Below, in pieces: positions 4,071 to 57,878 of a DNA stretch of 64,000 nucleotides (position 1 is its first letter; the number at the start of each line of letters is the position of its first letter). The stretch is from Bryum argenteum (taxonomy: Eukaryota > Streptophyta > Bryopsida > Bryales > Bryaceae). Under the pieces are notes generated by a model, which worked only from the letters and a program-made list of their open reading frames with translations, was not told where the DNA came from and did no database searches. The stretch spans positions 23,092,364-23,156,363 of the forward strand of contig CM073322.1 in assembly GCA_037043015.1 (NCBI GenBank). The letters run 5' to 3'. The translations under genes and the position numbers were made by a program.

Positions 4071-4168
4071 TGTAATGTCCTTGTTGAGAAACTATATAGA
4101 ATCGTTAAGCACTTCGTTCCTGCACTCGATGTGAGTCTAACAGTGCAATGCATCGTTAAATTCTTTAA

Positions 4169-4906
4169 CCCTAGAACGTCGGAGCCCATAACCGTGGCCT
4201 GAACTTTGATATGTCTTACTCTGAATCCTCCATCTCGCCACTTTACCTGAAAGTAAAATATTTTATTTCATTTTTCGTAGATGTGATCACATGCTTTTCA
4301 TATGCTGTAAAAATTTCAGATTTTTTTGGGAAGATTTGAAATTCAAGTGAATTTTCAAAGAAAAATCAAAAATAATTCATATCAAATACAAATCACTTTC
4401 AAAAAATCTGAAATTTTTAGAATAAGGGGACATTGTAGTGAAGAATAGCATGGTGTAATCCATGGTTTCGTGTCATGCTATATTTGAAAATTGAGAAAGA
4501 GACCCTATAGGCATGTAAACTTAAGGTGTCAGTAAATCACTAGATATTAGGAATTTCTTGAAATTCTAACTTGGAGTAGAAACAAGACTTGGTAAGATTC
4601 ATTTTATGAATTGAGCTTGAACTCAAAAGAGATCATTTAGTTGCCTAAATTTGAGACTTAATAAAAGTAGGAAAAAGTTGCAGAAATGCACTGTGTGGTG
4701 ATTTGTTTTTAACCATTCTTTCAACTTTCATACCACATGTGATCTTAGGAAATACCTTAAATGACCTCAAATGAATTCCATGATATGCTATTATCATTCA
4801 TAAATCCAATTACAAAAATCATGAATGAAATTCATCCCGCAATAATAGGTTACAGTGAAAATGTTCTCTTCATCAGACATAAAATGGCCGCTCCGACGTT
4901 CCAGGG
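4169..4906 (+). mobile_element. Family-A MITE copy 1 (piggyBac-like, TTAA target)
   Basis: A 738-bp non-coding element. It begins CCCTAGAACGTCGGAGC and ends with the inverted form GCTCCGACGTTCCAGGG, so the two 17-bp ends differ at one position. It is flanked by TTAA at 4165-4168 and 4907-4910. A second copy of 739 bp lies in the opposite orientation at 14934-15672 and looks about 98% identical by eye. No transposase is encoded. The TTAA duplication and CCCT terminus are the hallmarks of the piggyBac superfamily. Confidence 0.88.
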
Positions 4907-5293
4907 TTAACGTCGAAATGCACGCTCCTGAATCTGTTCCCCAACATGAGAGCACGCTTAACGTCGCATTATGCACGGGAACTCGTGCGTTCCCTATGTT
5001 ACTGCACAGGCACTCGGTCTCCCCCCTCGAGCGCTGGTGTAGTAACATGCGGTTACGCACTCGTCCCAGTGCGTAACGCTATACATTATAATTTCGTGAT
5101 TAGTCGTAAGTGCAACGAATGGACAGAATTCAGTGCTAAGTGGATGAACTTCATCACTCTCCTAAACCCTAACACCTCTCCTCATTCCGAACACGAAGCT
5201 TCAGCAACGCATGCAATTTCAGTGACGAACGATTTAGGCGATTGCGGAGCATTTTATGCAATTTATGAAATGATAGCAAGCATTTGAGCGATC
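4907..5293. other. Promoter region of the WDR82-like gene
   Basis: Nearly 400 bp between the family-A element and the WD40 start codon. It includes a telo-box (5164-5172) and is less AT-rich than the preceding DNA. There is no gene. The element ends about 390 bp upstream of the ATG and so may lie close to, or inside, the promoter. Confidence 0.5.
5164..5172 (+). promoter_or_regulatory. Telo-box AAACCCTAA
   Basis: An exact AAACCCTAA lies about 120 bp upstream of the start codon of the WDR82-like gene. In plants this motif is common near the transcription start of housekeeping and translation-related genes. Function here is inferred from sequence and position only. Confidence 0.4.
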
Positions 5294-8200
5294 ATGGAGG
5301 ACAAGCGGACTTCTGCGTTGAGTCTCAATGACGCCGTTATCAAGAGCATGGCCATGGGTGCGGTCTTCAAGGATTATGTACGCCCTTCGCACCTTTAGCA
5401 TAAAAAACGCAATCCTCATACTCTCCATCCTTACCGTGAGAAATGATCGCCGCAGCGTGCAGAGCGTAAAATCCTGCCATAAAATATCTAGGGTTTAACG
5501 GGCCTTACCTTGAGAAATGACCGCCGCAGCGTACAGATCGTAAAATCCTGCCACAAAATATTTAGGGTTTAACGGGCCATGCATTGCTCGTGAGCTGATC
5601 CGAGACTCGCGACAGCATTTCGACTCAACGAAGAAGATCTTCGTAGCTGCACATTTCTTAGTAAGCTAGTATCAGGATTTGTTGGTTTCCCAGCACGGGA
5701 GGTTTCTCGTACTTTCTTATCTAGGCGTTAATTACATGTCTGAAAGGTGACCATTTGATTATCAGTCCATACTGTGGTCTAAATTAGAAGCTGCGGTATA
5801 TCATCTCCTTGTCGGAGAAATGCTACGAAATGAGAGATGGTCTTGTTCATAAGCTCATATCGTGCATTATGAAGATAATGTAATGATTTTGTGATGTTTT
5901 CTGCATTTTCTGCAGGGAGGAAAAATCAATTCGCTGGATTTTCATCGAACCGAAGACCTTCTTGTAACTGCCTCCGATGATGATTCTATACGTCTTTATG
6001 ATACGCTTAACGCGACGTAAGTTCCCTTTGCATGAAAAAGCTCTCATACCCCTTGCATTTATGCTTGTGAGTGGAATTGATAGCTCGTGTTTGCTCATGC
6101 AGGTCGCTGAAAACGATACACAGCAAGAAGTATGGGGTAGACCAAATTTGTTTCACTCATCATATCAATTCCGTGATTTACTCCTCCAAGAAAGAAGGAG
6201 ACGGTAAGTGATCCATCTCATTGTTATACATGCTGCTAAGTTTGGGACGCCAACTGTATATGGAATGTCTGCTGAGGTGACTTTGTCTGTGCAGAGTGCT
6301 TGCGGTACTTATCTTTGTATGATAATCGATATTTGCGCTACTTCAAAGGGCATCGTGACAGGTCACTATCTTAATCTTATTCTTCTAGTAGTGATTATCG
6401 TTTTATGTTATTGATTAAAATGTTTTTACCATATCGAGTGACTTGAAAAGATGTGATGGCAGTGCAGGGTTGTGTCCTTATGCATGTCACCGAAGAATGA
6501 CTGCTTCATGTCTGGTGCATTAGACCACACTGTGCGTCTATGGGACCTTCGCACTAATGTGTGTCAGGTAGTGCACTTTTCTATCGGCCTACTTGTACAT
6601 TTGAAACGACAAGAAGAAGGAGTTGTTGCAGATATATTGTTGCTTCTCCTTGTGAAGAAGTATAATCTGGACGCTACCGATAGAAGCCTAATGAGCTGTT
6701 ACTTAGTTGGAATGGACCAGTAGGTCGTTTGATTCTTTTCCAGAGTCCTTTTCGTGCACTAATGGGTCATTTCTTGGCTCAGGGGTTGTTACGTGTGAGA
6801 GGGAGACCTGCTGTTGCATATGATCAACAGGGTCTTGTATTTGCTGTAGCTATGGAAGGTGGAGCCATCAAACTCTTTGACGTGCGCTCTTATGACAAGG
6901 TCAGAAAACGCGTTTTCTATATATTAAGCTTCTCTGACATGCAACGTGCTGAACATCATCACAATCAGGGTTTCAGTTTTCCTTGCGAATGTCATGCGTA
7001 ACCTCATTATTAATGAATGCGTAAGCCTAGCCTTTACATGAAGGTCGCTTGCAAATAGCAATTGCACATACTTGATAGATTTTTCAAAGATCTAGTCTAT
7101 TAATTCATCTTTTCAAATTTTCATGAACCTCTTTATGTGTCTTTGATATCCTCTGTTGCTTGTTCCGATCATGATATGCTTTTCCTCGTGGATGCCTGAC
7201 GAGTACATGACTATTTGCAACAGGGGCCATTTGATACATTCTTGGTAGGAGGTGATACCGCTGAAGTGTCTGGCATGAAGTTCAGTAATGACGGCAAGCT
7301 TATGCTACTATCAACATCCAACGGCCATGTTTACGTGGTGGATGCTTACACTGGGAAGAAGGTATACAATTCCGCAACCGTGATCCTAATGGTTGTTCAC
7401 ATGAAGTGGAGTTTGCTTGGATATTCTAACAAAGATGTTGCTTACAGCTTCATGGCTTCACTTTGGAACCCAATCCTGACGGCGGAGTACTGGAGGCCTC
7501 CTTCAGTCCAGATGCACAGTTCGTAATTGCAGGTACAGTATGGGCTATTGTTGCCAAGGGGACATCTTTATTGCGTAGTTCTGACATATGTCGATTCTTC
7601 CATGGTACTCGGTCGTGCTCGTCATGTTGGACTTTCCCCGACCAAGTACTGGCATTTTCATGCCGTGTCGGAATATAGGCATCTCTAATGTGAGTGCTTC
7701 TTTTTCGTTGTAATCATGAACCTTGATGTTCCGCATGTGATCTGAAGTGGTGGTCCGCTGCAGGCTCAGGAGACGGCACTTTGCGAGCATGGAGCACGAT
7801 GTCGGGTGTTGAGGTACTTTCTCCTTCAGAAAAATGTGACATGATGTTTCCACTTTACCTAGTTTCTTTTAGTGAAGACGAAGTTTTCATTACATGGAGT
7901 TAGTGTAAAGAGCTTCGCAACCCCAAAGACAGGGGAGACGTTAAGACTAATGGATTCGCACACGTAGATCTGCCATCATCCATGAGGCGGAATGGGTTGA
8001 CTGCTTTGGTAAAATGTCACTTTTTAGCAACCCAATGATAGCAGTCACTTGTAGAAAGAAAAGAAAAACCATGTCATGTTACCGTGTTGATCCTGATCTT
8101 TACGTGTCAGCGAAGAAGTGCTTTGGCTTAAATGTTACGTTAATGAATTGCCAGGTCGCCTGCTGGACGAACAATGCAGGGGTGCCGGCGTGTGTGAAGT

Positions 8201-13640: not shown

Positions 13641-14933
13641 CGCGAATGGTGAATGAGAAAATGATACTGAGCAGATGGGGGGGCAAGGGAAGCATATATG
13701 CAAGCCGATCCAGGCCTGATTCATGCATGCCATTCCCAACCAAAGCGATCCTGTGCTGTGCTGCTTGCAATGCTGAGTGCGCATGAGCAAGCAACTGCGG
13801 TTCCTTTGCTCTGCGTGCTCTGCTTCGTAGGCTCGGTGATGTTCCCTCCCGTTCGGGCCGATCCGAGCCTCCTCCGAACCTGGGATCTGGATATCCTGTT
13901 TCGTCTCTCGCACATTACCATTTACTTAGCTGAGGTTGAGCGGGAATTGTGGTACAGGAGGCAAGTCTCCTCGACCGATTCCAAGGCGGAACGGTCGTGT
14001 GAGACAAAGCCTCCTGTATTGTAATATAGATTGAGAAGCCTCCGGCCAAGCCCATCAGTGATCAAGGAAGAACTGAGGGCTAGTTTATTATCAACCGATG
14101 GATTTAGCACACTGGCCGGTCCATTCATGAAATCAATGGCTGAAAATTACAAAATAAAGCAATTGCCGGAAGAGATCTGTGAAAAACCGATTGGGTGGGG
14201 CAATGGTTCGTGGCAGCTACCAAGGAGGCACCCTAGAATCTGTGGGGACCTCCCAAGGCCGTTTTTGATAATTTTGAATTCAAATTTGAGGTCTGCGACC
14301 CCAAGTTACTCTAACAAGCCTACTCCTTGACATTCAATGTCTATACATCTAAAGATTAGGGGGCTCATTACCCCTCCTCCATTCTCCTTGGTAGCTGCTA
14401 CGAACGCTTACCCGATCGGGTGGGGGAAATGCCGGTAATTAGCTAGTAAAAGTCAAAAACTTCTCGAACCCATACTTGAGAAAGCCAATCCTTGCCTTTG
14501 GATGCAGTGTAAAGTGAGAGAAGGCTAAAGACTTTTCCCCATGTGGAGTTTTTCATAAAATATTTACTAAATGATTAACTGTGGTGGGGGAGCGTCAAGA
14601 AAAAGCAATACTTTGTGTGCCAACAAGGCAAAAAAGTGCTTAACCATGTCATTTTTGGCTCTGGTGGACTAAAATTTGCTTGTGTAAAGCCTCTCTTCAT
14701 TGGATTCTCAATTGGTTGACAACTCCTTCTACTCTTGGGTTCTCGACTTTTGTGGAAAGAGGAGACCTTATTTTCGGAATTACTATAAAAGAGAGGGGAG
14801 CGGGCTAGTTTTAAAATTTGTTTGGTGTCCCACCCACTGGAAATAGAAAAGTGGGAATGGCAGGTGTCGTGGTTTGTGCATGGCAAAGGAAAGGTTGGTT
14901 TCCATGCATGCAAACCTTGAGTCCCCACTTTAA
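13641..14933. other. Intergenic, mixed composition, no gene
   Basis: Moderately GC-rich sequence adjoins the carboxypeptidase fragment, but neither strand gives a recognisable product. It contains the short inverted-repeat element at 14161-14440. Confidence 0.4.
14161..14440. mobile_element. Foldback-type MITE of 280 bp
   Basis: The two ends are imperfect inverted repeats over about 65 bp. The left end contains AATTGCCGG, CGATTGGGTGGGG and GGCAGCTACCAAGGAGG. The right end, reverse-complemented, contains AATTACCGG, CCCACCCGATCGGGT and AGCAGCTACCAAGGAG. There are no ORFs. The target duplication is not obvious. Confidence 0.6.
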
Positions 14934-15672
14934 CCCTGGAACGTCGAAGCGGCCATTTTATGTCCGATGAACAGAACATTTCTCACTGTAACCTATTATT
15001 GCGGGATGAATTTCATTCATGATTTTTGTAATTGGATTTATGAATGATAATAGCATATCATGGAATTCATTTGAGGTCATTTAAGGTATTTCCTAAGATC
15101 ACATGTGGTATGAAAGTTGAAAGAATGGTTAAAAACAAATCACCACACAGTGCATTTCTGCAACTTTTTCCTACTTTTATTAAGTCTCAAATTTAGGCAA
15201 CTAAATGATCTCTTTTGAGTTCAAGCTCAATTCATAAAATGAATCTTACCAAGTCTTGTTTCTACTCCAAGTTAGAATTTCAAGAAATTCCTAATATCTA
15301 GTGATTTACTGACACCTTAAGTTTACATGCCTATAGGGTCTCTTTCTCAATTTTCAAATATAGCATGACACGAAACCAAGGATTACACCATGCTATTCTT
15401 CACTACAATGTCCCCTTATTCTAAAAATTTCAGATTTTTTGAAAGTGATTTGTATTTGATATGAATTATTTTTGGTTTTTCTTTGAAAATTCACTTGAAT
15501 TTCAAATCTTCCCAAAAAAATCTGAAATTTTTACAGCATATGAAAAGCATGTGATCACATCTACGAAAAATAAAATAAAATATTTTACTTTCAGGTAAAG
15601 TGGCGAAATGGAGGATTCAGAGTAAGGCATATCAAAGTTCAGGCCACGGTTATGGGCTCCGACGTTCTAGGG
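14934..15672 (-). mobile_element. Family-A MITE copy 2 (piggyBac-like, TTAA target)
   Basis: A 739-bp reverse-orientation copy of the element at 4169-4906, flanked by TTAA at 14930-14933 and 15673-15676. The right end reads GCTCCGACGTTCTAGGG and the left end CCCTGGAACGTCGAAGC. By eye only a handful of substitutions separate the copies, so at least one moved recently. Together the two copies form a large inverted repeat with about 10 kb between them. Confidence 0.88.
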
Positions 15673-15787
15673 TTAAAAAAAGATCAGCAGTGTTGATCTT
15701 TTTCACTCATTGTCATGCACATGAAACTTGCTGACATCCTCGACGTCTAGTCTTTGAATTCTCATCAAGTTTGGACCATGGTACTAA

Positions 15788-16239: not shown

Positions 16240-16746
16240 GTATGGTAAGGTGTCCTATAATGGCGCAATTTTCAGCACAGAAAATCTACAGGAATGTTGC
16301 CAGTGCAAGCAATTTTTGTGCATGGGGAGAATTAGTAGAAAACTAGAGCAAGTGGAATCATCATTTTTCGACTCTCCTACAGTAAGTAATGAATTTTTTA
16401 AAGATGGAAATATAGGTGTTCTTAAAATGGTGCCCTAAAGTGACGCCCTATAATGAATTTTTTAAAGATGGAAATATAGGTGTTCTTAAAATGGTGCCCT
16501 AAAGTGACGCCCTATAATCTTTGCATTGTGTACTGTTGTATGGAGAAGCTATTATGTACGTGACAGTGAAGATTACTAGGGCTCCATTTTCGGCACTGCG
16601 CCATTTTTGGCTGCTCTACCATAAACTCCATTGTTGGACCAATCACATAGGGGAGGCTAAACTCATTGTTGGACCAATCATATAGGGAGGGAATAGTATA
16701 AATTAGGTTAGGCTTGGAAGCACCATGCGAATTAGGGTTTATTTAA
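16240..16746. repeat. Dispersed repeat shared with 45540-45850
   Basis: The segment from about 16330 to 16570 is recognisably homologous to 45560-45730. Both contain GTGGARTCATCA, a CTCCTNCAGT motif, a GATGCCCT/GTGCCCT motif, then GCATTGT and a GGAGAAGC motif. It includes the tandem duplication at 16391-16518. At 16625-16695 there is another short duplication around TTGTTGGACCAATCA. Confidence 0.5.
16391..16518. repeat. Perfect 64-bp tandem duplication
   Basis: Units 16391-16454 and 16455-16518 appear identical. Such perfect identity indicates a recent duplication or a possible assembly artefact. Confidence 0.92.
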
Positions 16747-17112: not shown

Positions 17113-17116
17113 TTAA

Positions 17117-18530: not shown

Positions 18531-19423
18531 TTATTGAGTGTATTCTCGTGGATAAGACAATCACTCTACTAGCCAAGAGATAACCACAATTACACCATCA
18601 AAGGTCTAATACTTTAATTGACCGATTTTGAGGTTGTAGATTTCATACCCGATCGAAAAAATTAGAAGAACTATTCCCAAAGTTCAAGAGCAAAAATCTT
18701 GGAGTTACTCTTGTTTCTAACTCTTAGTATTTGAAAGTGAAGCTTCTACTTTTAAAAGTATACTAGCTAGATGTCACTCTTCCTTGTATGAAGACACCCT
18801 TATGTAGTCAAAAGTAAATACTTGCAACCTACTTGTTTTCTCCTCATGAATGTTTGGTGCAAAAAAGGAAGTCAACCATTCAAGTGTGGTTAGGAAAGTG
18901 GATAACATAGTGTCAATTGAGAACTCATAAGTAAAGGTATGAAAACTGAAAAAAGACCATGTAAAATGATTTGCCTTCCCACCTCTCATTAAAATTTTTG
19001 CACTTTTCATGGTTGCCCCGAATATTTCGCACTTTTTTTTAAAAAATAATTCAAAACTTGCAATTGTACAGTGGCTAGCTATCACGATAAAATAGATGAG
19101 GATTTAACACGCCTAATAGGGAGGATCCCCTCGAGGTTACGTCTCTCATCTCTAACAGTATCTACATTAACTATAAACTTGTGAAGTTGACGTTACAGCC
19201 GTACCACAAATAGTTTAAGGGCCATAACACATGGGAGGAAAGGCAGTGAGATGGAAGATTCGTATTGGTTCTAATTAGCAAGTGGTTGCCACATGAGAGG
19301 AAGTAGGGAGAGTGGCAAGAGTGACATGGAGCAACTTTGTAGCTTTGGGGTTTGCTTTGGATGTTGCTTTGGGATCTACATGGCAATGACATGGCACATG
19401 GGAGGCACTTGAAAACTACCAGG
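18531..19423. other. Intergenic, nothing recognised
   Basis: AT-rich DNA without a supportable gene or element. Confidence 0.4.
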
Positions 19424-19650
19424 CACTACACTGAATAGGTAGATTAGTGTTAGATTTTTATAAGACTTGAAAATGTTATAAGTTTTTACTTTTGATATAA
19501 AAAATTTACCAAGAGTATTGATTCCAATACTGTGGAAGGATCCCCATCTTGACGGATGTAGAGGGTAAAAATATTGACCAACAGTAAAAACTTATAACAT
19601 GTTTATATAAATTAGTGTATCTAACACTAATCTACCTATTTAGTGTAGTG
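19424..19650 (-). mobile_element. Family-I MITE copy 1 (CACTACACTAAATAGG ends)
   Basis: A 227-bp element whose ends are CACTACACTGAATAGGTAGA and its inverted counterpart CTACCTATTTAGTGTAGTG. The inverted similarity continues through ATTAGTGTTAGAT. The flanks CCAGG and CCTGG extend the palindrome. Its interior is the reverse complement of the copy at 23606-23829. Confidence 0.8.
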
Positions 19651-20505
19651 CCTGGAATTTGACCCCCGGCAATTGGAGAAAATTCAGGAGCAGCGGCAAC
19701 AGGCAGGGGCGGCCTGCCGATGGTGTGGCATGGCCCTAAGACCCTAGAATGTTCATTGTGAGTACATGAAAAGCCAAGATGGAAGGCTATCATGTCCCAC
19801 ATAGGTACATGAACCAAGTGCACCATTATTGACCCTGGGGATGAGATGAGGCAATTGGTTGTGTAGAGACTGAAAGGGGGATTCGTCTGATCTTGAAGGA
19901 AAAGTGCGATCATGGTGGTGGTAACATGACGAAGGGGGGGCGATGGTTTGTCGGATCAGCGAGCGGGCAGTGAAGAGAAGAGGAGCAGGTGGGGAAGAAA
20001 GACAAAGATGCCGTAACAGCAGCAGCAACCCAGCAACCCAGCTGCCAGTAAACATCATAGCTTGGGCAGCCACCAGCAGAAGAAGAAGAAGAAGAAGCAA
20101 AGAAAGACTAACTTAGGAGGACTGTAGTAGGAGAAACTAATGCAAGCAGCAGCACTCTCAACGACACTTGTTCCCTACTTTTTCCGCCACCTGGAATGGC
20201 GAGCACGACCACATGGAATATCACACACTCCTCCCTCCCCTCTCTCCCTTCCTCTTCCTCTCTTAACTCCCTCTCCATTCCACCGCATCCACTCTCACCA
20301 TCTCGGATCCGATCGCCACCGCCATCGCCACTTTCCTCTGCAAGCACCGTTTCTTCTTCAGAGTGAGCCCAGAGTCCTTTGCATGCACAGCCGGCCACAT
20401 GGAGCCCTCTCTCTCCTCCCTTGCACGACGTCGCATCCACCCTCGCCTCACCGGAGAAGCTTACCGAACAGCCGTCTTCTAAACTGCTAACAAGCACATC
20501 CATTG
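19651..20505. other. 5' flank of the phosphoglycerate-mutase-like gene
   Basis: The DNA becomes GC-rich and strongly pyrimidine-rich on the plus strand from about 20220 to 20460. This gives long open frames on both strands by composition only; none looks like a protein. It is most likely promoter sequence. Confidence 0.5.
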
Positions 20506-23604: not shown

Positions 23605-23605
23605 A

Positions 23606-23829
23606 CACTACACTAAATAGGTAGATTAGTGTTAGATACACTAATTTATATAAACATGTTATAAGTTTTTACTATGATTAAATTTTTTTACCCTCTACAT
23701 TGGTCAATATGGGGATCCTTCCAGGGTATTGGAATCAATACACTTGGTAAATTTTTTACCAAAAGTAAAAACTTGTAGCATTTTCAAATCTTATAAAAAT
23801 CTAACACTAATCTACCTATTTAGTGTAGT
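23606..23829 (+). mobile_element. Family-I MITE copy 2
   Basis: A 224-bp element beginning CACTACACTAAATAGGTAGA and ending CTACCTATTTAGTGTAG. It carries a conserved interior (TTATAAGTTTTTACT, GGGGATCCTTCCA, GGTAAATTTTTTACC) shared with the copies at 19424-19650 and 57879-58101. Confidence 0.82.
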
Positions 23830-24313
23830 TGCTAGGAAAGGACTAGCCTAGTGTCCATCCCATGCTAGGATAGGTCTAAAAAAGACACTCCATTGACACC
23901 AACCTTCAATTAAAGTTTCGGAGTTCTTCCTCTCTCTAGTTCACTTCAAAACTCCAACCACGTCATTCTATCACTTAGCTCAGTTGCAAGAGGAGATCTA
24001 GTTTAAGTACAAAGTAATGGAAGAAACTCCCTTGCCAAGTAGCCATACTACTTAGGTTCATGATTGTATTTCTCTCAATTGGTTAATACATTGATTAGGA
24101 AAAAGAAAAAAACTTCAACCACCACACCAAATCCATGGAAGCAAAGACATGCAATCAAAAACAAAAAGAAATAAAATGGGCGAAGAAATTGCAAAGGTAC
24201 AAAGGCTAGGGGGATATCGTACAAAAATGTTGCAATGTACAAAGATCAACACGTGTGCATTCTGTGCAAAGGGGAAATTGAATGGTCAAACAAAGAAAGA
24301 GGAACCAAATTAA

Positions 24314-25148
24314 CCCCCTAAAGTCAACTTGCCTCAAAACTGCCAAAAAGCTCCATGTTTTTTAAATCTTGAAAGAAAATGACACATTTAACTACTTCAA
24401 GACTGGAAGCAGTGTAGAAGTAAGACAATGCTGGCTCCCCCTTATATCAACAAGATACAATGTGAACAAGAAAACGTAATTTGGGATTCTTTGAAGAATA
24501 TGAAGATTCTCATAGCGTCCGATGTAGATTTTTAATTAGTGTAGTGGTCATTCTACAAAACTAAAAATTCCAAAATGCGCTCTGGTTTAGAATTTGTGAA
24601 TGAGTCCTGATTTAGTTAAATGTGTCATAAACTATAAAGGCAAATAATATCACTTTATGCTGAAGAACATCATCAAGCTTCTATTGAAAAATGTTCACTT
24701 CAAATGTTAAATTTTTTTAGTACCATGTGTTGAATTGGAATATTTGGATCCAAATTTGATCATTGAGTACCATGACTGCTTGCCACATGCAAAAGAAGCC
24801 ATTAAACTTCGAAGTACATAACTTGCTTAGGAACTAGGATTTAAAGAGCCTCAATTCAAATTTACTCTTGAAACTGATATTTTTTGGCTCATGAAACACT
24901 TTAAACCAATATTACATCTAGGGGTTTTTTATATCTTATATTCAAATTTGAACATTATGATCGCACAATTGGTGAAGAGTTTGAATCTAAGATTTCATCC
25001 ACACACACATATACAAGTTAGGTACTAGATCCTACGGTTAGTTGGTTACATACTCAAAAGTTTCTCAGAACTTAAAAGTTTACACCTTGCAATGACCCAA
25101 GGGCTCTTTTGTCACTTTTTGGCAGGTTTAAGGCTTAAGATATTAGAG
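24314..25148. mobile_element. Family-G TTAA-type element
   Basis: TTAA (24310-24313) precedes CCCCCTAAAGTC. The opposite end is TATTAGAGG followed by TTAA (25149-25152). Inverted similarity goes deeper: TTGCCTCAAAACTGCCAAAA on the left matches the reverse complement of the right-hand TTTTTGGCAGGTTTAAGGC. Length is about 835 bp with no ORF. The ends are diverged, so it is an older copy. Confidence 0.6.
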
Positions 25149-25735
25149 GTTAATTCACCAAGTTTTCAATGAAGATTTTCTATTTATAATTGTGACAACT
25201 TTTCAAAGTTTTGCATGTATTACAACTTGATGAAGTCATCACTTGGGAGTTAACTACCGTTCATTTTCATAGGGATGTGCTATAATGTGTTATTCAAATT
25301 CAACCACTTTCAAAAAATCAACCATACAATATCTTACTAAGATAGTAAAACACTCTCTTATCAAAATTTAGAGTTACAACTAACCTAAACAACCATGTTC
25401 TCACCAATTTAAAAATTCCAAAGCATCACTTTAGAGTACAAAGAGTTTGAACCCCTAATTTTTTTTTTGAGAGCTTTAAACCTCAAAAATGTGATTGCCT
25501 ACCTCTATGTACTCATGGGGGTGTGGATCAATTCTACTTTTCTAGACTTCCAATCCTATGATTATGTTCTAATGCTATATTCTAAATTTCTCTTCTCTAT
25601 CACAAAATTTCTTTTTCACACATTTTTGTGGTGTATTTTCACCTCATAAATTATCACTGGATCAATTTTCCTTCACTAAGAACACTAATCTATATTTTTT
25701 AAAATCGAAAATAGTTGAAGCCCAACTTTTATTAA
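25149..25735. other. AT-rich intergenic
   Basis: No gene. AACCCCTAA at about 25449 may be another decayed element end. Confidence 0.35.
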
Positions 25736-25981
25736 CCTCTAAAGATCCAAGAAAGCCAAAATGGTTTTATGGGAAAAAATCAGCCAACTTTGACCATTAT
25801 AATCTCAAAAATGAAAAAGAATCCACAATTCAAATTTAACTTGCTAGTGGAAAAGTAAGAAAATCCCAGGATCCTACGGTTGGATTTTTTATGTGATACT
25901 TAGATTGAGTTTTTTTTGGGCTTGAAATGAACAAATATCATTTCTCTCATTTAGACAATTTTGCATCAAAGATCTTTAGGG
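25736..25981. mobile_element. Family-H TTAA-type MITE
   Basis: A 246-bp element with ends CCTCTAAAGATCC and AAGATCTTTAGGG (inverted), flanked by TTAA at 25732-25735 and 25982-25985. No coding sequence. Confidence 0.6.
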
Positions 25982-26392
25982 TTAAATATAAAGAGAAGTG
26001 CAAACAATCTTCCTATTCAAAGAATAATAGAAATATTAGAATCGAAAACAAGGATACGGCCGTTGCTGGTCCCATGCACCCCACCTTGCCACCATGTGGA
26101 GATTCCAGCCATGGCACTGACACATTACCCCCCCCTCCTCCTTTTTTATGCATGCTCCAAATTTTGAAAAAAAAAAAAAATAACAACAAAAAACAATAAA
26201 TCACCCCTTCTCATGCAATTAGTACACCGTATACCCGTACAATTATCGGGGAAAACCGACGGCTAGTTCATTATCAGCCGACTAGCCATGTACCTGTCGT
26301 CCCGATGAGTAAGCTCTTTATATGGTACTTTTATAAAATTATCCCGTGTCTACCATTTCTTCATATTATGTTTATTATTTTTATATATGTCC

Positions 26393-26442: not shown

Positions 26443-26853
26443 CTTACATACTCCAAAAAGCATAAAAGAAGGTAGGTAGGTAGGTAAGTTGGTAGGTTGG
26501 TACGTTGATGGGTAGGAAGGATTGTCTTATAGTATTTTATTATAGAAGTAGATGGAAATAACCCATTAGCATGTTGATTCTTGAAAACACGAGCTCAAAA
26601 CCGAGAAAATTACAAGAAAATTTCTATTCTTAGTATAAAATGAGACAATTGTCGGGATAGTTTCACCTAAAACTGGTTGGTTAAGGGAACTATAGGATAT
26701 TAGCCAATACGGATGAAATTATTTTTCTGAACGTTGGTACGTTAAGATAGAATGGCGTTTTTGAAATTGCAGTGATAAAGAACTTTGAAAAGCTTTGTGA
26801 TAGCGCACGAATTGGTATTTTACGACAAATTTTTACTAAAGACTTGTCTTCAA
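25982..26853. other. Intergenic with simple repeats
   Basis: Contains a run of 49 T at 26394-26442 and a GGTA-type tetranucleotide tract at 26471-26517. The T run could be the oligo(A) tail of a minus-strand retroposon, but no retroposon body was recognised. No gene. Confidence 0.5.
26394..26442. repeat. Homopolymer run of 49 T
   Basis: An uninterrupted T tract, followed by C at 26443. Its length is likely unstable and may be mis-estimated by sequencing. Confidence 0.95.
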
Positions 26854-27451
26854 CCCCTAAAATTTCCTTGTGTGTTTTTGGAGCTTAAAACCTCAAAATT
26901 TGTAGTTTTCTGCCTCTGTGTACTTCCGGGAGTTTGAACCAAATTTTCTAAATAATTTTGGAATTCCAACTATAAGATTTTTTATAAGAGCCTATTTTTA
27001 GTCACTCGTCCAAAAATTGACCGTTGGATGTTTATCCTTTGCAAGATTGTAACATCCAAATTTTGCGCAGAAGTTTAAAGTGAAATTTCTAAAAACTTTG
27101 AAGTTTGCTCTTATAAAGTTTGAGGGTTGCCTTTATAGAGTTGGTGAACATTTTGACGTAGGGTCCCTTGAAACTCAATTGTTAATTTGGTTATGAACAT
27201 ATTTCCAAAAGAAAATCTCAAAAGAATCTCAAAAATACAAAGTTTTTTTCTGCTCGCCTAGGGTGTGAAAACTAAAATTTGCATTAAAAAACTTTTAGAT
27301 TGGATCTTGACATCAAAATTTGTTGCACACACCTTGTAGTATAGGGACGACTTAGTAAAACTTTTAAGCAAAAAAATTGTTGATTTTAACACCTTTATCT
27401 ACCCTGCCGGAAATAGCAAAACCTGATTTGGCTTTAAGAGATAGTTAGGGG
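26854..27451 (+). mobile_element. Family-F TTAA-type MITE
   Basis: A 598-bp element with left end CCCCTAAAATTTCCTTGTG preceded by TCAA (one change from TTAA). The right end is ATAGTTAGGGG followed by TTAA (27452-27455). The interior matches 55364-55940 and 1-569. It abuts the next element and shares the same TTAA. Confidence 0.75.
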
Positions 27452-27455
27452 TTAA

Positions 27456-27961
27456 CCCTTAAAAGTCCCTTGTGGATAGTATGTACGTTGTTGTATAATT
27501 AGGATTTGCTACCAACAAGGAACTCTAAACTGGAATCGTAATAGCTCACTAGAACCGCATTAATTCAAATGAACCCCAATTCCGTTAAAATGGCACTATG
27601 CCATGTGCCATTTTGTCACACTAGATCTTACATTTGTGCTCATATAAAATGGTATATTCTGTAATATCACAATTTTTTTTGTAATATCACAATTTTTTTT
27701 GTAATATCACTTCTTTATATACATTGTCACTCATTTTTCCTAATATCACCTTAAAATTCTGTTATATCACATGGTTTTTGAACTACAGTTCAGAAAGTTG
27801 AGGTGTGCCATTTTACCGGAATAATGCCATTTTAACGGAATTGGAGTTAATGTCAACTTCTTCTTTGAACTCAAACCCATTAAAGGTGTGCATTCACTCC
27901 AAATACAACCAAAATACACCGTATTCTACTGGTCGCCACGGCACTCTCAGACCTTTAAGGG
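27456..27961 (+). mobile_element. Family-D TTAA-type element, interrupted by a family-E insertion
   Basis: Left end CCCTTAAAAGTCCC after TTAA (27452-27455); right end CAGACCTTTAAGGG before TTAA (27962-27965). Of its 506 bp, 27572-27848 plus a 4-bp duplication is a later insertion, leaving a MITE of about 225 bp. The ends resemble family B. Confidence 0.75.
27572..27848 (+). mobile_element. Family-E MITE nested in family D
   Basis: A 277-bp element. The left end is AACCCCAATTCCGTTAAAAT and the right end, reverse-complemented, is AACTCCAATTCCGTTAAAAT. The direct flanks are AATG at 27568-27571 and 27849-27852. The interior carries several copies of GTAATATCAC. A related, larger copy starts at 55210. 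Confidence 0.75.
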
Positions 27962-27965
27962 TTAA

Positions 27966-28942
27966 GTTACTTACATGTATGCCAAACTTCAAAATGCCAA
28001 AAGATTCATTGAAAAAAGTTATTTAGAATCTACCAACTATGGAAACCGTAACATTGTTGCCAACTTTGACAACCTCCCCGAAGATTTTATTTATTTTTAA
28101 CTATCTAATTTTTTATTTTTCCATGAAATTCTTGGAACAAAAACCTATGTCGCCTAGATCGTCTAGGCGGTCTAGAGCATTGTGGTGAATCTTAGATTAA
28201 AAGTTTGTAGGCTACTTAGTGCGTGATTTGTAACCCTACACGTTGTTTTTGCAACTCAAGTGCATAAATGTATCTAGTTTATTGGTACTCTTTATTGCAT
28301 AGGTAGTTGTGATTGTGATTGTGGTGGCTAGGATCTACAATTGTGCTTGTTTTTTCTTTGCTTTCGTTCGAGTGTTGCTCACTATCAACCGTTTGATGTC
28401 CCATGACACTAAGAGCCATTTTTAGACCCGTTGCAGACCCCTTTCATCCCATACCCCACCCGCAATTCATATATGGAGCCCTAAAAGTAAGGAAGATTTC
28501 ATGAGACTCTGTCATTCCCTCACAGCCTACCCCAGCTGCCCATTTTTCAAAGCATAAGTTTGACTATGAATATTTCAAAAAATATGAAGAAGTTTGCAAA
28601 CAGAAACGCTCTAGTTAGAAAAATATGCAAAAACACTTCAATGTGCAAAAGATTCCACCTTCATAAATGAAAGTTGGCTAAATGGGGACCTGACCAAACT
28701 CAAATCGACCAATCAAACGTAAGAGTCGATTTCAACATTAAGGGTCGATTTTGACATTAGGGGTTAAATCCGAGAAGTACAAAATAAACAAAAGGGGTGA
28801 TAGAAAAAAAGAAGTACATATTACTATATATATATATATATATATATTAATATACAAGTACCAGTATATTGTAATCTCTAACTTAATGTGTGACGCTTCA
28901 TGACTCAAATTTCGGTTCACATGACCTACACTAAGTCTACTA
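27966..28942. other. Intergenic
   Basis: No supportable gene. A TA dinucleotide repeat lies at 28823-28848. Confidence 0.4.
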
Positions 28943-29044
28943 CTCCCTCTGTCCCATTACAATAGTTTAGTAGGTTCTCTCAAATCTACCTTGAAAGGTA
29001 GATTTGAGAGAACCTAGTGGACAATTATAATGGGACAGAGGGAG
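28943..29044. mobile_element. Stowaway-like hairpin MITE (Tc1/mariner type)
   Basis: A near-perfect 102-bp palindrome. It starts CTCCCTCTGTCCCATTA and ends TAATGGGACAGAGGGAG, with TA on both sides. The two arms pair almost completely through AGGTAGATTTGAGAGAACCT. The CTCCCTCYGTCCC terminus and TA target are those of Stowaway elements best known from grasses. A one-armed relative lies at 49506-49570. Confidence 0.9.
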
Positions 29045-30519
29045 TAGTAGAGGGTACAATTAAGATCTTAATAAATTACCCTAATTTTCATCTATGTCAA
29101 TTTATTGGGGATGTGTTTTTGGTCAAAAATAGGAGTTGGGACTATATTTTCTTCTAATGACCGCACAAGGCGAGCAGTGGAGTTGAAAAGAAGGGTGTGG
29201 GGGGCAAGTGTTGAGAAAATGAGAAGCTTGACACAAGAGTCGTAGATTCGGCGGGGGAGGAGAAGTTCGGGGATGATGCTGCACCTTTGAATCCAACCCA
29301 ACCGTGTGGCTCCCACATACTTCGGCGGCCTTTCTGCTTCCGGCTCTTCGATTCTGCTGGAATCAGGGTCCTACAATTCCAAGGCAATGCTGAATAGCAC
29401 ATCTAGATAAATATGTTAAACGAAGGGTAGTGGGTCCTTTCGACTTTGGGTATGCTATGTCAAAACTTTGCAAAAAGTAGCTTGGAGAGGTTGAATCTTT
29501 CGTAATCAAGAATGTTCTAGGAAATAACTCAATGTTTGAGTAGATATCGAGTTCGCCAGCTTAATTAGGAAAAAGGTTGGACTTCTGTGCATATGCTATG
29601 ACCCGATTGAGCGAGAGCTACCAGGGTAGTTGAGGCCATCGCGAAGTTCCAAATACAGTCCAAAAGCCTTTACACGAGGAGTTGAAATTGAAACTGTGAA
29701 AGGTGTTTCGAAGACACGTCCGAGTTTGGAATTCATCCAAGAAAGACGAGTTCATTAGACAAATAATTGTCCTTCTCTGTGTAGTCCTATGAATATATTA
29801 ACACCGTAGGGTGTAGGTAAAGCTCTGAAAATGGTTCATGAAGACCAAGAATTAGATCACGACAGGCATATGGGATGCATTTGCAATTGAGACGAGAGAG
29901 ACAATTACCGCGGTACTTGGTAAGAATGGACCAGTGATGTCCCCACTGACAGTAAGTTACATGCTAGTGACGGTATAATGGTAGCATCAGAAGCTTAAAT
30001 TTCTCGAGATGGAAACATTCAGCTTATAAAATACATGACGTGATTCTGGGTGACAATAAGCCCCTCATGAGTCGTTGATTCTTGGATATCCTAGACCCAT
30101 TGTCGGCTGGAGGTTCGACTGATTCGTCTTCCAGTGCGCGTCGACACGCATACCGACTGTAGACTTCCGCAAGTTGAAGACGAAATTACCACCGGAGAGG
30201 AAAGACAGGCCAATCTCCGACGAACGACAACTGAACTCGAGCCTCGAAACTTTACTAGCTTGTGCCGTTGATCGCGTTCTGCAGTCAAAACCGTGCATTT
30301 CGTAGTAACACCCTCGTGACGGGAAGATCAGAACACGCTTCAGGTCTATGATATGGCGATGTCGTGGATTGGAGCAAGTTATACGTAATTGCTGGACTCG
30401 TCTCAAAGCTAGCACTGGCTTCGGATTGAAACTTGCGGGTCCTGATTGCTGTCAGGAGCATGCTTCGAGCCGGATGTAGTTGATTTGGTGCAATTGAGCA
30501 TCGCGCTCATGGTGCAGTC
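29045..30519. other. Upstream region of the pectinesterase-like gene
   Basis: About 1.5 kb of mixed composition. Short open frames on the minus strand at 29100-29400 and 30065-30415 have no recognisable domain. An out-of-frame ATG at 30509 precedes and overlaps the pectinesterase start and could act as a short upstream ORF. Confidence 0.45.
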
Positions 30520-43808: not shown

Positions 43809-44915
43809 GGTTGCAGTACTTACAATATAACATTCGAAAGATTATAATTAGCGAAATACAGTTCTTTTATACTTTCGATTTCACTTTCTCTTTTATTTTT
43901 TACTTTCACTTTTGAAGCTTTTTCATTACTCCTCTCTCTGGACATGATTTGCTAAAAATGGTCGGATGTTCTTCAATGGTTTGTATTACTCCTTAATATG
44001 ATAGAACATGGTCCGGATTACTCATTAATATTAAGCCTTGGGTTCTATCTAGATCTAGATCTTAGTTTTTTTTGGAAGAAAGGAGTATCAGCGATAAAAA
44101 CTACTGATAGAGCTTTTACTTTGTAGTCGAAGCTAGGAAAAGATAACATGGATTTCTCAAGTTTGGAGACTATGATCGATGAAATTAGAGCCATGTTTCA
44201 TGCTAAGACAAAAGCTGTAAGTTGCCATAAACTGGATGAAAAAAGAGGCTCCGAGCTACATCTGGATGAATGTGTAAGGATGCTTCTGTCAATATTTTCT
44301 TCTGCAAAGCCCTAAACCTCAAACAGCCCTCTGAACGCCCTTTGCGCATCTCAGTGTTACAGTGGTCCCTGGATAAGAACAATGTTCTTGTCTGTCCGAA
44401 AACGTTTATCTAATCCAAGCACCACTGTATCACTTAATTTCAAACAGGCGGATCGAATCTCCCCTGTCATAGACGCCGTTCATGTAACTTCTCAATTTTC
44501 TAGAAATGACTTGGCCGGCCCTGCATTTCTAGGATGTAAGAGCATCTCCACCAATACTCGCTATAGGTGACCCACTAAAAATGTTCATCTATATTTGAAG
44601 AGCCCTTGAAATCACACTCCCCCACCCTTAAAGGCCACTCAAGCACCAAAAGTGCATGTGAATTAGTCAATGCACCAAGCAAGTAGAATGTCAGATTTAG
44701 TCAACTAAACTTAGATATGGAGGGCGATTTCTTAACGCGCAAAAGTAGAGAGCCAAGTGGCATTTCTGAAGGGCCCTTAGCATTTCTCAGCCACTTATTG
44801 CTGCAAGCTTGTCTGAGACACTTGACGAGTATGGGTGCGGATTCTACTACATACAAGCCACTTAATCCTACAAGCTTCTCAGCAAGCAGCGTAGTGAGTG
44901 GGAAAAGAATCTTAA
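43809..44915. other. Intergenic, no gene
   Basis: AT-rich sequence. It holds the second copy of the 50-bp duplicated segment at 44490-44540 and a TCTAGATC-rich stretch at 44048-44066. Confidence 0.45.
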
Positions 44916-45276
44916 CCCTTAAATGTCTAAGGTGACCTGAGGGGTCCTTTTCCAACAGAATCTTCTCTGTAGCTCTCAATGTGCTCAACTTTTCACTTAT
45001 ATTTTGATGTCAAACTGGTCACCTTCTTCTAATGCATTCAAAAAGTGAAATTTTAGAATTCAAATCACAATTTGTATGAGTGATTTTGTGCTTTGAAAGG
45101 ATTGTGGTAGGTAGGTTGGCGTTGTACAATACTTGTAGGAGGTTGCAAGCTCATCATTGATTGGATCATTCATGATGCCCAAGTTCAAAAAGTGCACTAT
45201 TCATGATGCCCGAGTCCAAAAGATGCTCTGATCCAATACTGGGCTGCCCAAATCCGTATAGCCTGACGTTTAAGGG
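44916..45276 (-). mobile_element. Family-B TTAA-type MITE copy 1
   Basis: A 361-bp element: TTAA (44912-44915), CCCTTAAATGTC ... GACGTTTAAGGG, TTAA (45277-45280). The interior (GTTGCAAGCTCATCATTGAT, TTCATGATGCCC, TTTGTATGAGTGATTTTGTG) is shared with 45868-46293, 56331-56689 and 57132-57546. Confidence 0.85.
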
Positions 45277-45867
45277 TTAACAAACAAAATTCAACTTGCA
45301 AAACTGGAATAGGTCCGCAAAACACCAGTTGCGACGTGTTCAGAATTAAAATGGAGGATAATAGTTTGTAGGGCTCGCATTTCTCCCTAAAGATTGGTTG
45401 CAAGACTTCTACAGGGTAATCTAAGTTTATCCATAAACATTAAACTCTATTTTAGAGTAGCATGTGCATTCGCTTGTAAGGTGGATTGCTCAAGAATGGC
45501 TCAAATTTCAATTTGGCAAATTTGTGATGGAGTTAAGAGTGTAAGGATTTTTTTTGCATTCGAGAAATAAGTGGAAGACTAGTCCAAGTGGAGTCATCAG
45601 TTTTGGAATTCTCCTTCAGTCTGTTATGAATTTTTGAAGTTGAACTTATAAGATTCCTTTAATGATGCCCTACAACACCCTAAATTTTGCATTGTTGGTA
45701 CATGGAGAAGCACATTCTAAAGCTACTATGTACCTCTTGGCTTTTAGGGCTCTTAGTGAACCATTCTTGGTATTGTGTCGAATTGAAGCTACTATGTACC
45801 TCTCGACTTTTAGGGCTCTTAGTGAATCATTCTTGGTACTGTGTCGAATTTGAGCAGCCTACCTTAA
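45277..45867. repeat. Dispersed repeat with internal 66-bp duplication
   Basis: The segment 45540-45730 is related to 16330-16570. Units 45720-45785 and 45786-45851 are a tandem duplication (AAGCTACTATGTACCTCT and TTTTAGGGCTCTTAGTGAA in each) with few differences. No gene. Confidence 0.7.
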
Positions 45868-46293
45868 TCCTTAAACGCCCAAGCAAGCTCGAGGGAATTT
45901 TTTCTTGAGCAATCTACCTTAACCTTAAACGCACAAGCAAGCTCGAGGGAATTTTTTCCAAGAGCTGCGCTGTAGCTCTCACTGTACTCAACTTCTCACT
46001 TGTATTTTCATGTCAAATTGGTCACCTTCTTGTGATGTATTCAAGTGATGTATTCAAGAAATGAAATTTTACGATTCAAATCGCAATTTGTATGAGTGAT
46101 TTTGTGCTTTGAAAGGATTGTGGTAAGTAGGTTGAGGTTGTACACAACCTTGTAGGAGGTTGCAAGCTCATCATTGATTGGTTTATTCATGATGCCTAAG
46201 TTCAAAAAGTGCACTATTCATGATGCCCAAGTCCAAAATATGCTGTGATCCAATTTTGGGCTGCCCGTTTCAGACCCCATGGGCCTTTAAGGG
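45868..46293 (-). mobile_element. Family-B TTAA-type MITE copy 2, left end duplicated
   Basis: The left end TTAA (45864-45867) plus TCCTTAAACGCCCAAGCAAG is repeated 55 bp further on (TTAA at 45919-45922, CCTTAAACGCACAAGCAAG). The right end is GGGCCTTTAAGGG followed by TTAA (46294-46297). The interior matches copy 1. Confidence 0.78.
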
Positions 46294-46692
46294 TTAAACA
46301 TTGGACTCTACTTTAGAGAAATTACCGACAATGTAATTGCGGCCCCGGTGAATTCTACCTCCTAACTTATGTTCCTCTGTCCCACAATAGTATAAGCCAC
46401 TTGCGTTAGTTGCACGCACATTCGATGCTGCCGCGTGTTGACCGCGTTTCCTCGGCCGACACCGAAGAGAATCCATGCCCTCAAGTCTTGGAGAAGCAAA
46501 GCTATCAACGATAACACTGGCCCCCGTCTTATCCTTCATTACTATTATGTCTACCATCGGACGCTGCCCTAACTTCTGTATTGATCGTGCTAGTTCCATC
46601 ACCAAATAAATTGGGGGGACTTCAAATTGCATCAAGTTCGATCGTGCTGGGATCGCCGAGGAGCTTGAGAATGTCGAGCAACGGATCATCAC
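46294..46692 (-). other. Open frame adjoining family-B element, origin unknown
   Basis: The minus strand is open for about 130 codons without an initiating ATG at its 5' end (an internal ATG occurs). It contains KLGQRPMVDIIVMKDKTGAS and LYYCGTEEHKLGG, which look protein-like rather than random. I recognise no family. The frame stops at the TTAA next to the MITE, so the element may have truncated an older gene. Confidence 0.3.
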
Positions 46693-46706
46693 TCATGTAA
46701 CGCTCC

Positions 46707-55008: not shown

Positions 55009-55067
55009 AAATAAAAAAAATAAAAAATAAAAAAAATAAAAATAAAAAAAAATAAAAATAAAAAATC
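55009..55067. repeat. A-rich low-complexity tract
   Basis: A runs broken by single T residues, giving a degenerate AAAAAT-type repeat. Confidence 0.9.
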
Positions 55068-55209
55068 TTCAAGAACGTTTCCTAAATGGAAACAAAGGTA
55101 AGTTAATTCACATCTCAATTGTTCAATCTTGTAGTATACATATTGTTCATAATGTGGGTCAAATATTGAGTCATGAGGCCTCATAGATTGCAAGATCATA
55201 ATGTAATAA

Positions 55210-56275
55210 ACCTCAATTCCATTAAAATGGCGGTATTCTTTGTGCCATTTTGCCAAATCCCTATGAGCCATTTTGGTCGCGTTCTAAAACCTGCCATTTT
55301 ACAAGCATATTTTTGAATTGAAGTTCATAAGTATTTATGCCTACAAAATGGCATGTTCATTAACCCCTAACTTTCCTTGAAACCCGAAACAGGTTTCTGC
55401 ACTTTCGGGCAGCCTAGATGAAGTAGTTAAGAGTAATATTTTTGCCTAAGATTTTTACTGGGTGCTCCTTATACTGCAAAGTGTATGTGGTAAAATTTGA
55501 ATAGCCAGATTCCAATTTTTAGACCTTCATGCAAAAAAGCTTAGGTTTCAAGTTGAAAAAGGGCAGCTTAAAATAGTAATTGTTTGAAATAATTTTTGGA
55601 AATATATTTATTACTAAATCACTACTCAAATTTCAAAGTGATCCAAGTCAAAAAGCTTACCAATTTTAGAAGGGCAGCCTCCAAAATTTTCAAAACCAAT
55701 CTTTGCAATGCCCAAAAAAACTTGGGAGACAAATTTTGGATGTTATGATCTCTCAAACGGTAAACATCCAACGGTCAAATTTTGGAACAACAATTAAAAA
55801 TAGTCTTAGGTGCAAGATCTTACATTTGGAAGTTTTAAAAAAGGAAAAACAATTCGTTCACACCCCCGGGAGTGCATAGAAGTATATAATTGGAGTTTTG
55901 AGGTTTCAAGCTCCCAAAAAACACCAAGGAAAGTTAGGGGTTAATATCACACATGTACTCTGTAATATCAAATTATTTCTGTAATATCACCAAAATTTTC
56001 ATAATATCACACATTTTTATGGTTTTTGACCTTTGGACATAGTCAAAGGGCAATATTTTTTGAATGTTTGTTCAAAAAGATCATTTTTTTTTTTAACATC
56101 AATTCAAAATATTTCATTGACTAGTAAATATTTCTGAACGGCCGTTCAAAAACATTATTGTTTTTGAAATGGGGTTGGAAATATTTACCTTATCAAGTCA
56201 AAAGTTGACAAAAACGAACATTATTTTTTTCAAATATTAAGCACTCCAAAAAGTGCCATTTTACCCAAAAAATTT
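55210..56275 (+). mobile_element. Family-E element carrying a nested family-F MITE
   Basis: The left end AACCTCAATTCCATTAAAAT matches the ends of the element at 27572-27848. The GTAATATCAC-rich interior continues after the nested insertion at 55364-55940. The right terminus is only partly recognisable (GTGCCATTTTACCC near 56255-56270), so the border is approximate. Confidence 0.55.
55364..55940 (-). mobile_element. Family-F TTAA-type MITE, intact ends
   Basis: A 577-bp element with a perfect 16-bp inverted repeat, CCCCTAACTTTCCTTG ... CAAGGAAAGTTAGGGG. It is flanked by TTAA at 55360-55363 and 55941-55944, and sits inside a family-E element. Homologous, more decayed copies are at 1-569, 8768-9047, 16747-17112, 26854-27451 and 37563-38300. 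Confidence 0.9.
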
Positions 56276-56693
56276 TGACTGCCCGGAGACCTCCAAACTA
56301 CTGTAAAACCGCTGGGAGAAGCAAGGTTAACCCTTAAAGGTCCTTTCACTCCTCAATGGGCAGCCCGAAATTGGATCACAACATCTTTAATTTGAACTTG
56401 GGCATCATGAATAGTGCAATTTTTGAACTTGGGCACCATGAATGAACCAATCAATGATGAGCTTGCAACCTCCTACAAGGTTATGTACAACCCCAACCTA
56501 CCTACCACAGTCCTTTCAAACCATAAAATCATACATACGAATTGTGATTTGAATTGTAAAATTTCACTTTTGGAATGCATCATAAGACGGTGACGAGTTT
56601 GACATCAAAATATAAGTGAAAAGTCGACTACAATGAGAGCTACAGAGAAGATTCTGTTGGAATCAATCCCCTCGGGCTTGCTTGGGCGTTTAA

Positions 56694-57546
56694 CCCTTAA
56701 CCCCTAAACGCCCAAGGGGGGGTAAAGCTCCTAACAATTGGTAATAATGCTGATTTTTTCAAAACTGCGTAAAAACAAATAAAAGATGAAAATGGAAAAT
56801 CCAACCGTAGGATCTTCTTTGGAGCATGGCAATTAGTATGACATCCGAGTTGCATGCCATTTGGAGATATGGATTTCAAGATCCATGCAAAAAAGGGGTG
56901 AAGATCACACCACCAAAACTTTCATGAAAAATCTCTTTCGCCCACTCTCACAAATTAAGGATCAAGGTTTTTACTATTTATCCAAGGACGGAGTAGAGTA
57001 AACACACCGAGGAGTTGAGCAAAAGAAATGGCGGATGAAAAATCGATGGGATGAAAGCGAGGTTGTGCACCAAAGACGGAGCCTCACATCCAGAATGTCG
57101 AAAAACGACACTGTGGGCCCTTAAGGGTTAAACGTCTAGCTATACGGATTGGGGGAGCCCAAAATTGGATCACAACATTTTTTGGACTTGGGCATCATGA
57201 ATAGTGCACTTTTTGAACTTGGGCATCATGAATAGTGCACTTTTTGAACCTGGGCATCATGAATAGTGCACTTTTTGAACTTGGGCATCATGAATGATCC
57301 AATCAATGATGAGCTTGCAACCTCCTACAAGGTTATGTACAACCCCAACCTACCTACCACAATCCTTTTAAAGCACAAATCACTCATACAAATTGTGATT
57401 TGAATCCTAAAATTTCACTTTTTAAATACATCACAAGAAGGTGACGAGTTTGACATCAAAATATAAGTGAAAAGTTGAGTACATTGAGTTTACAGAGAAG
57501 ATTATGTTGGAGACGGCCCCCTCGGGGCCGCTCAGACCTTTAAGGG
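56694..57546 (-). mobile_element. Family-B MITE copy 4 (middle of the nest)
   Basis: It starts CCC (56694-56696) after TTAA 56690-56693 and ends CAGACCTTTAAGGG at 57546 before TTAA 57547-57550. So it duplicated the TTAA inside copy 3's terminal repeat. Its own left terminal repeat is split after CCC-TTAA by a further element. The continuation ACGTCTAGCTATACGG starts at 57132 and matches copy 1 (CCGTATAGCCTGACGT, inverted). Three tandem copies of a 33-34 bp unit (TTGGGCATCATGAATAGTGC) lie near 57190-57290. Confidence 0.8.
56701..57127. mobile_element. Family-C TTAA-type element (innermost of the nest)
   Basis: It is flanked by TTAA 56697-56700 and TTAA 57128-57131, with ends CCCCTAAACGCCC and GTGGGCCCTTAAGGG. 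Its 427-bp interior is unrelated to family B. It interrupts the left inverted repeat of copy 4 exactly at that repeat's internal TTAA. Confidence 0.72.
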
Positions 57547-57553
57547 TTAAGGG

Positions 57554-57878
57554 TTTAGCTAACCGAGGATGGTGGGAGAGGAGGGATTTAGTGCCTCCAA
57601 GAGTCAACCACGAGGACTCTGGTTCGACCCGCACCTCCCCACTTGATGCATTAAAAAACCCTAAACAAATCACCTGCTACTGCCATGTGCAGATTTAAAA
57701 ACTAAAAATAAAAATAATGTTTGGTATCTGTGGGACACAACCAGAAACGCAATGAAAAACAAAGTACCGAGAAAAACATGTCCAAATCAAGAACAGAATA
57801 TTTAGTATCGTGAAAAGCGTGTCTCATATCAACCATGCTTGTGGTAAAAACATACAACCAGACTCCTTTTTGTTACAG
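57554..57878. other. Intergenic
   Basis: No gene. The sequence around 57590-57640 has a GGTTCGACCC phrase, but no tRNA cloverleaf can be drawn. Confidence 0.4.

Follow-up and report, generated by a model that had tools for sequence, protein, structure and literature searches.

Do the short, inverted-repeat elements bordered by TTAA in a stretch of moss DNA belong to the piggyBac superfamily, and does the same genome hold a transposase that could move them? The stretch (hereafter the window) comprises 64,000 nucleotides of Bryum argenteum (assembly GCA_037043015.1, contig CM073322.1, positions 23,092,364 to 23,156,363), and an earlier note, made from its letters alone, had proposed that it harbors a population of piggyBac-like miniature inverted-repeat transposable elements (MITEs). 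The superfamily itself is already known. By searching the whole assembly (258,844,377 bases in 25 contigs, 11 of them chromosome-size), we find support for the piggyBac reading in the ends of the elements, in a source of transposases with the PF13843 domain, and in duplication of the TTAA target. We are highly confident that the window elements are nonautonomous piggyBac MITEs moved by the transposase of longer relatives elsewhere in the genome.

The ends described in the earlier note (TTAA followed by CCCT, CCCC, or CCTC) are present at the positions it gave, together with the one-base border decay that it allowed for (TCAA at the left of element F1, TTTA at the right of element Ba). We scanned the 321 TTAA sites of the window for pairs spaced 80-2500 bp apart with an inverted match of at least 12/14. 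Six pairs were found. Thirty windows simulated with a second-order Markov model gave 0-1 each, and scans for the other 15 palindromic tetramers gave 0-2 per tetramer. The six pairs comprise both copies of family A, elements B2 and F2, a pair at 56327-57550 that joins borders of two nested elements, and a pair at 27585-27835 that sits within a different repeat. CCC[CT] follows TTAA in 22 of 642 instances (34 per 1000), and 11 other AT-only tetramers in 0-8.3 per 1000. The elements as listed span 6,326 of the 64,000 bases, a figure in which G and the unrelated repeat inside D are counted.

Family A has a 746-bp copy on the plus strand (4165-4910, TTAA borders included; ends CCCTAGAACGTCGGAG and CCCTGGAACGTCGGAG) and a 747-bp copy in reverse orientation on the minus strand (14930-15676), with TTAA at both borders. 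B1 (44912-45280, 369 bp) and F2 (55360-55944, 585 bp, terminal inverted repeat or TIR 14/14) lie on the plus strand and have TTAA at both borders; B2 (45864-46297, plus strand) has a locally duplicated left end (45864 and 45915). The elements that the earlier note had entered as family B at 56331 and 56694 and as family C do exist, but their structure has to be corrected: the segment 56327-57557 consists of three nested elements, all on the plus strand. Element C (56697-57131, 435 bp, TTAA on both sides) is inserted at the TTAA of the left TIR of the B-type element X (56690-57550), which it splits, and X in turn is inserted at the TTAA of the right TIR of the outer B-type element Ba (56327-57557). 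The scanned pair 56327-57550 joins the left border of Ba to the right border of X. Removing C and X in turn, with one TTAA kept each time, restores a normal CCCTTAAACG-type TIR. The right border of Ba, now TTTA by decay (57554-57557), accounts for the end coordinate in the earlier note.

No transposase lies in the window, as had been stated: a profile made with 24 transposase open reading frames (ORFs) of the genome gave no match there. The autonomous source predicted elsewhere is present, with at least 116 PF13843 transposase matches within elements that have TTAA and CCCT/CCCC ends. This number is a lower bound, since the 116 matches were those scored out of 775 candidates and all of them lie above the cut-off. 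Every one of the 11 chromosome-size contigs carries some of them, their open frames measure 447-1331 amino acids, and by eye about 93 of the 116 have no internal stop. A PF13843 search of 14 control genomes gave no match. In a Pfam scan of six full ORFs, PF13843 was the sole family in all six (E 8e-75 to 1e-81), and a PDB search with three ORFs matched at E ≤0.01 only 6x67/6x68 (labeled "Transposase"), which we take to be T. ni piggyBac, and piggyBat (9c0f).

The DDD domain is conserved. All three aspartate motifs are found by pattern in 20 of the 24 ORFs, and on reading also in those of loci L011 and L018; the ORFs of L015 and L028 end too early for the full set. A cysteine-rich C-terminus pattern is present in 10 of the 24, several others ending early. 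The genome contains several deep transposase lineages (37%-44% alike in seven pairs compared across lineages), and end type tracks lineage in the two larger groups of a tree of the 24 ORFs, drawn without outgroup or support values. Three ORFs (L016, L017, and L023) extend over 1104-1331 amino acids from stop to stop, with some 630-850 residues ahead of PF13843 that match no other Pfam family; the L022 ORF has 1226 amino acids.

The ends of the transposase elements were analyzed at 20 loci, with 8 kb fetched around each and L011 extended (L011+L029). Inside the 8 kb, a TTAA pair whose two ends begin with CC and match inverted at 11/14 or better is present at 13 of the 20 loci; 12 of the 13 loci reach at least 12/14, and 11 at least 13/14. 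Twenty rounds of simulation over all 20 loci produced no CC-starting pair at ≥11/14. Without the CC condition the simulations give 0.35 loci per round at 11/14, and L013 has such a chance pair. Once extended, L011 is a fourteenth locus with TTAA and CCC-type ends at an inverted match of ≥11/14, an element of 8.4 kb. The ends of L022 and L023 are weaker: they carry TTAA with CCCTTAAGCGGGCC at one end and, opposite it, CCCCTAAA; a 615-bp MITE in which both end types recur lends them support. Compact elements of 2.2-2.6 kb ending in TTAACCCCAAATTCC were considered for L009, L010, L013, and L025 and rejected, since TTAACCCCAAATTCC consists of codons of the L010 transposase ORF (LTPNS...).

These ends are common to the MITEs and the transposase elements. 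We compared the first 16 bases of 23 window ends, leaving aside the two ends of the inner repeat of D, with those of the transposase elements. Fifteen agree with a transposase-element end at 13 bases or more, a level reached by one of 739 control sites (plus-strand sites starting CC[CT][CT]; 12 of the 739 reach 12). With TTAA counted, family A (copy L030) and L011+L029 agree at 42 of 42 bases on the right and at 91% of 34 on the left, and their two ends are unequal in the same way: CCCTAG.. on the left and CCCTGG.. on the right. The ends of B2 and C pair with those of the CCCTTAAACGCCC and CCCCTAAAGGCCC transposase elements, and the ends of F2 pair less closely with L012/L021 (13/16).

For copies elsewhere in the genome we scored the best 40 candidates for each of A, B1, F2, G, and D, the window copy included. 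All 40 of the A copies (best of 266 candidates) align over positions 1-746 with both TTAAs. For B1 (best of 2660), 37 of 40 align over 1-369 at 96%-100% identity, and for F2 (best of 4957), 25 of 40 align over 1-585, while 33 of 40 reach 585 from a start within six bases of the left end. Among those scored, copies other than the window's are 96%-98% alike to the window copy in B1 and 85%-93% in F2. Identity levels that differ between A, B1, and F2 show that the families differ in age. A and B1 are MITEs in being short and noncoding, in having many copies of uniform length, and in carrying the ends of transposase elements, and F2 is so less strictly. The exact 20-mer TTAACCCTTAAACGCCCAAG occurs 1304 times in the genome, its reversed control and the version with AATT replacing TTAA not once; without the first four bases (CCCTTAAACGCCCAAG) there are 1476 occurrences, of which 1304 (88%) are preceded by TTAA. 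The family A end TTAACCCTAGAACGTCGGAGC occurs 210 times.

Might these elements nevertheless be just relics, old piggyBac copies that are dead and have not moved recently? The divergence of the F copies just given, the diverged state of G and D, and the decay of some borders would fit such a history. Set against it are the 14 A copies that we fetched, drawn from the best 40 of 266 and thus not a random sample as to identity: nine of them, counting the reference, show no difference along the 746 bp, and the other five differ at 1-6 bases. All 14 have TTAA on both sides, and their 60-bp flanks are at most 40% alike between copies. The plus-strand copy in the window has 7 differences from the reference. 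Near-identity extends to full-length elements, three 5.7-kb transposase elements being 99.77%-99.84% identical to a fourth, L044. It is seen also in the 615-bp MITE, which hosts the transposase element of L018 (L018 1418-7786): the joined flanks of the nested element, with one TTAA, match at 100% over 200 bp in 40 of 40 places (best 40 of 3107 candidates). Some families have therefore spread very recently, and we consider a history of relics alone to be very unlikely.

A second alternative is that these are PIF/Harbinger (Tourist) MITEs, in which a 3-bp duplication of TTA or TAA has been misread as TTAA; the tetramer does include both triplets, and one paper names Tourist MITEs among plant groups (PMC10004981). 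Our empty-site comparisons bear on this, and they are between paralogous sites within one genome assembly, as distinct from orthologous sites. The earlier note had held that empty sites with another target would speak against piggyBac; at the paralogous sites we find duplication of TTAA, and the nested insertions at 56327-57557 show it too. The joined flanks of L018 are one such case. For F2, a paralogous empty site (L012:7338-7495) is identical at 143 of 158 positions, with one gap and a single TTAA. Since the F2 flanks also align to 27643-27710 of the window, within the repeat that interrupts D, the probable landing site of F2 was a copy of that repeat.

Two further loci show how many bases are duplicated. 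Among the four near-identical 5.7-kb elements, three are bordered by TTAA on both sides and L044 by TTAT on both (left, TTAT then CCCC; right, GGGG then TTAT). Four of the 40 places that match the joined L018 flanks were fetched, and each has both ends of the 615-bp MITE: L068, L069, and L070 are flanked by TTAA at either end (in L068 the left end has one changed base), and L067 is flanked by CTAA at either end (CTAA then CCCC; GGG then CTAA). A 3-bp duplication of TTA or TAA fits neither the TTAT nor the CTAA case, and both indicate that four target bases are copied. Matching mutations on the two sides could also yield these borders, but copying of a 4-bp target is a much simpler explanation for two cases. 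Since all four bases belong to the target, and since the longer elements with such ends match PF13843 alone in Pfam (six of six) and no PIF transposase, a PIF/Harbinger origin is extremely unlikely.

That the elements are foreign DNA in the assembly, for instance from an oomycete or an insect, has a negligible chance of being right: piggyBac is better known from animals and oomycetes, but the transposase matches are spread over every chromosome-size contig, B1 and B2 are located between a pectinesterase gene and a class-3 lipase gene in the window, and contig C5 carries both transposases and a moss-type LFY. The LFY DNA-binding region on C5 reads ..PKMRDYVHCYALH.. and ..AWCQACY.., and we take the aspartate and cysteine at these positions to be of the moss type; on these diagnostic residues, the plant genome of the earlier note is narrowed to that of a moss.

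Several observations weigh against the piggyBac MITE reading, the selective sampling of the A copies among them. Roughly 23 of the 116 PF13843 matches, as counted by eye, contain a stop. The third motif of L011 is GVDTAAQ, without the fourth aspartate, so the L011 copy may not be a working source for family A. Of the 5.7-kb elements that are near-identical, four in all, three have a shorter ORF (831 amino acids, compared with 916). The two ends of L022 and L023 are too dissimilar for the TIR scan, and L013, L015, L025, and L028 are without one or both ends (one end only in L013 and L025). For eight of the 23 window ends the agreement with a transposase-element end is 12/16 or less: both ends of G (10), the right end of H (9), and the right end of B1, left end of D, both ends of F1, and left end of X (12 each).

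The failure of G and the weakness of D also tell against it, and the family list of the earlier note has to be shortened by G and in part by D. G as drawn there (24310-25153, no strand, TTAA on both sides) is not confirmed as a repeated unit: of the 39 other scored places, two cover 69-320 and the remaining 37 begin to match only at 502-540, many of them stopping at the TTAA on the right, and none extends to the left end at 24310. The repeat family is confined to roughly the rightmost 335 bp. D (27452-27965, plus strand) is interrupted by another repeat (27572-27848), which dominates its 40 scored places, only one other partial D copy being among them. On contig C6, one locus has matches to D 1-120 and to D 391-477 next to each other, as would a D copy that lacks the inner repeat. 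The inner repeat is an inverted-repeat element, AACCCCAATTCCGTTAAAATGG, of which the genome has dozens of copies; as a further TTAA MITE it was rejected, its copies not settling on TTAA borders. F1 (26850-27455, plus strand) adjoins D at a common TTAA, its left border having decayed to TCAA. H (25732-25985, plus strand, 254 bp) has a left end that is 15/16 like that of L014/L019 and a right end that is only 9/16 alike, with a one-base offset.

We propose that a piggyBac-type transposase from the longer relatives would bind CCCTTAAACGCC-, CCCCTAAAGATCC-, or CCCTAGAACGTCGG-type ends and cut the element out, and that the element would then insert at TTAA, leaving one TTAA on each side. Excision would be precise if it proceeds as in known piggyBac elements. 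Judged by sequence, the intact-looking piggyBac transposases of the genome probably move the window MITEs, and the system may still be active. More tentatively, and with doubt somewhat outweighing confidence, we suggest that movement continues today, with precise excision, in family A, in the 615-bp MITE that hosts L018, and in the 5.7-kb CCCCTAAAGGCCC elements, and that it has escaped notice in plants because piggyBac is not among the targets of plant transposon pipelines.

The distribution of these elements is uneven in one respect: contig C1 (44.09 Mb, the largest, 17% of the assembly) is poor in them, with 21 of the 1304 B-type ends, three of the 210 A ends, and five of the 116 scored transposase matches. 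It may be a U/V sex chromosome, because in a related moss two chromosomes are reported to be gene-poor and Gypsy-rich (PMC11704416). The window also contains other repeats. A small inverted-repeat family (ends ..CTACACTAAAT..), whose ends are not of the TTAA type, has three copies (19414-19660, 23607-23829, and 57878-58102). A 116-bp hairpin at 28936-29051, with 57-base arms that are 91% complementary, contains CTCCCTCTGTCCC and resembles plant Stowaway MITEs. A 64-bp unit is perfectly duplicated in tandem at 16387-16514, and a fragment of LINE type with zf-RVT lies on the minus strand at 60651-61475.

Like the known members of the piggyBac superfamily (T. ni piggyBac, 6x67/6x68; piggyBat, 9c0f), the moss elements have TTAA duplication, CCC-type ends, and a PF13843 DDD transposase. 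They differ in their plant host, in their length (4.6-8.4 kb), in the long N-terminal extensions of their transposases (ORFs to 1331 amino acids), and in the presence of several deep transposase lineages in one genome. Animal piggyBac-type MITEs are likewise short, with the ends of transposase elements and TTAA borders, whereas here the host is a moss and one 746-bp family has identical copies. With the plant Tourist and Stowaway MITEs they have in common small size, high copy number, and lack of coding capacity, but their duplication is of 4 bp with piggyBac ends, not of TTA/TAA or TA. The annotation program EDTA is not known to have a piggyBac class.

The earlier note knew of no dense piggyBac populations in land plants. 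This fits a guide to plant transposons that has seven plant TIR superfamilies without piggyBac among them (PMC10741241) and a plant paper that puts piggyBac outside plants (PMC4093653). It fits less well with other sources, which mention plants or angiosperms without detail: PiggyBac is named among seven MITE superfamilies of angiosperms (PMC10004981), and plants are mentioned in passing for piggyBac (PMC8086355; PMC10813416). In a fern, 1230 repeats are labeled PiggyBac (PMC6890710). Our search of the open-access papers available to us on piggyBac in plants and mosses found no report of moss piggyBac transposases. With the angiosperm, plant, and fern mentions in print, novelty to land plants is not secure for piggyBac as such; what we describe is a rich, recent, transposase-bearing population in a moss, as far as we found unreported for land plants.

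These results, with at least 116 transposase matches, deep lineages, and identical MITEs, argue that land-plant genomes, and mosses above all, should be searched again. In the related moss, 29.13% of the genome is given as TIR transposons, annotated with EDTA and RepeatModeler2 (PMC11704416), and we would guess that part of this fraction may be piggyBac. A native plant piggyBac is now on offer for work on precise excision.

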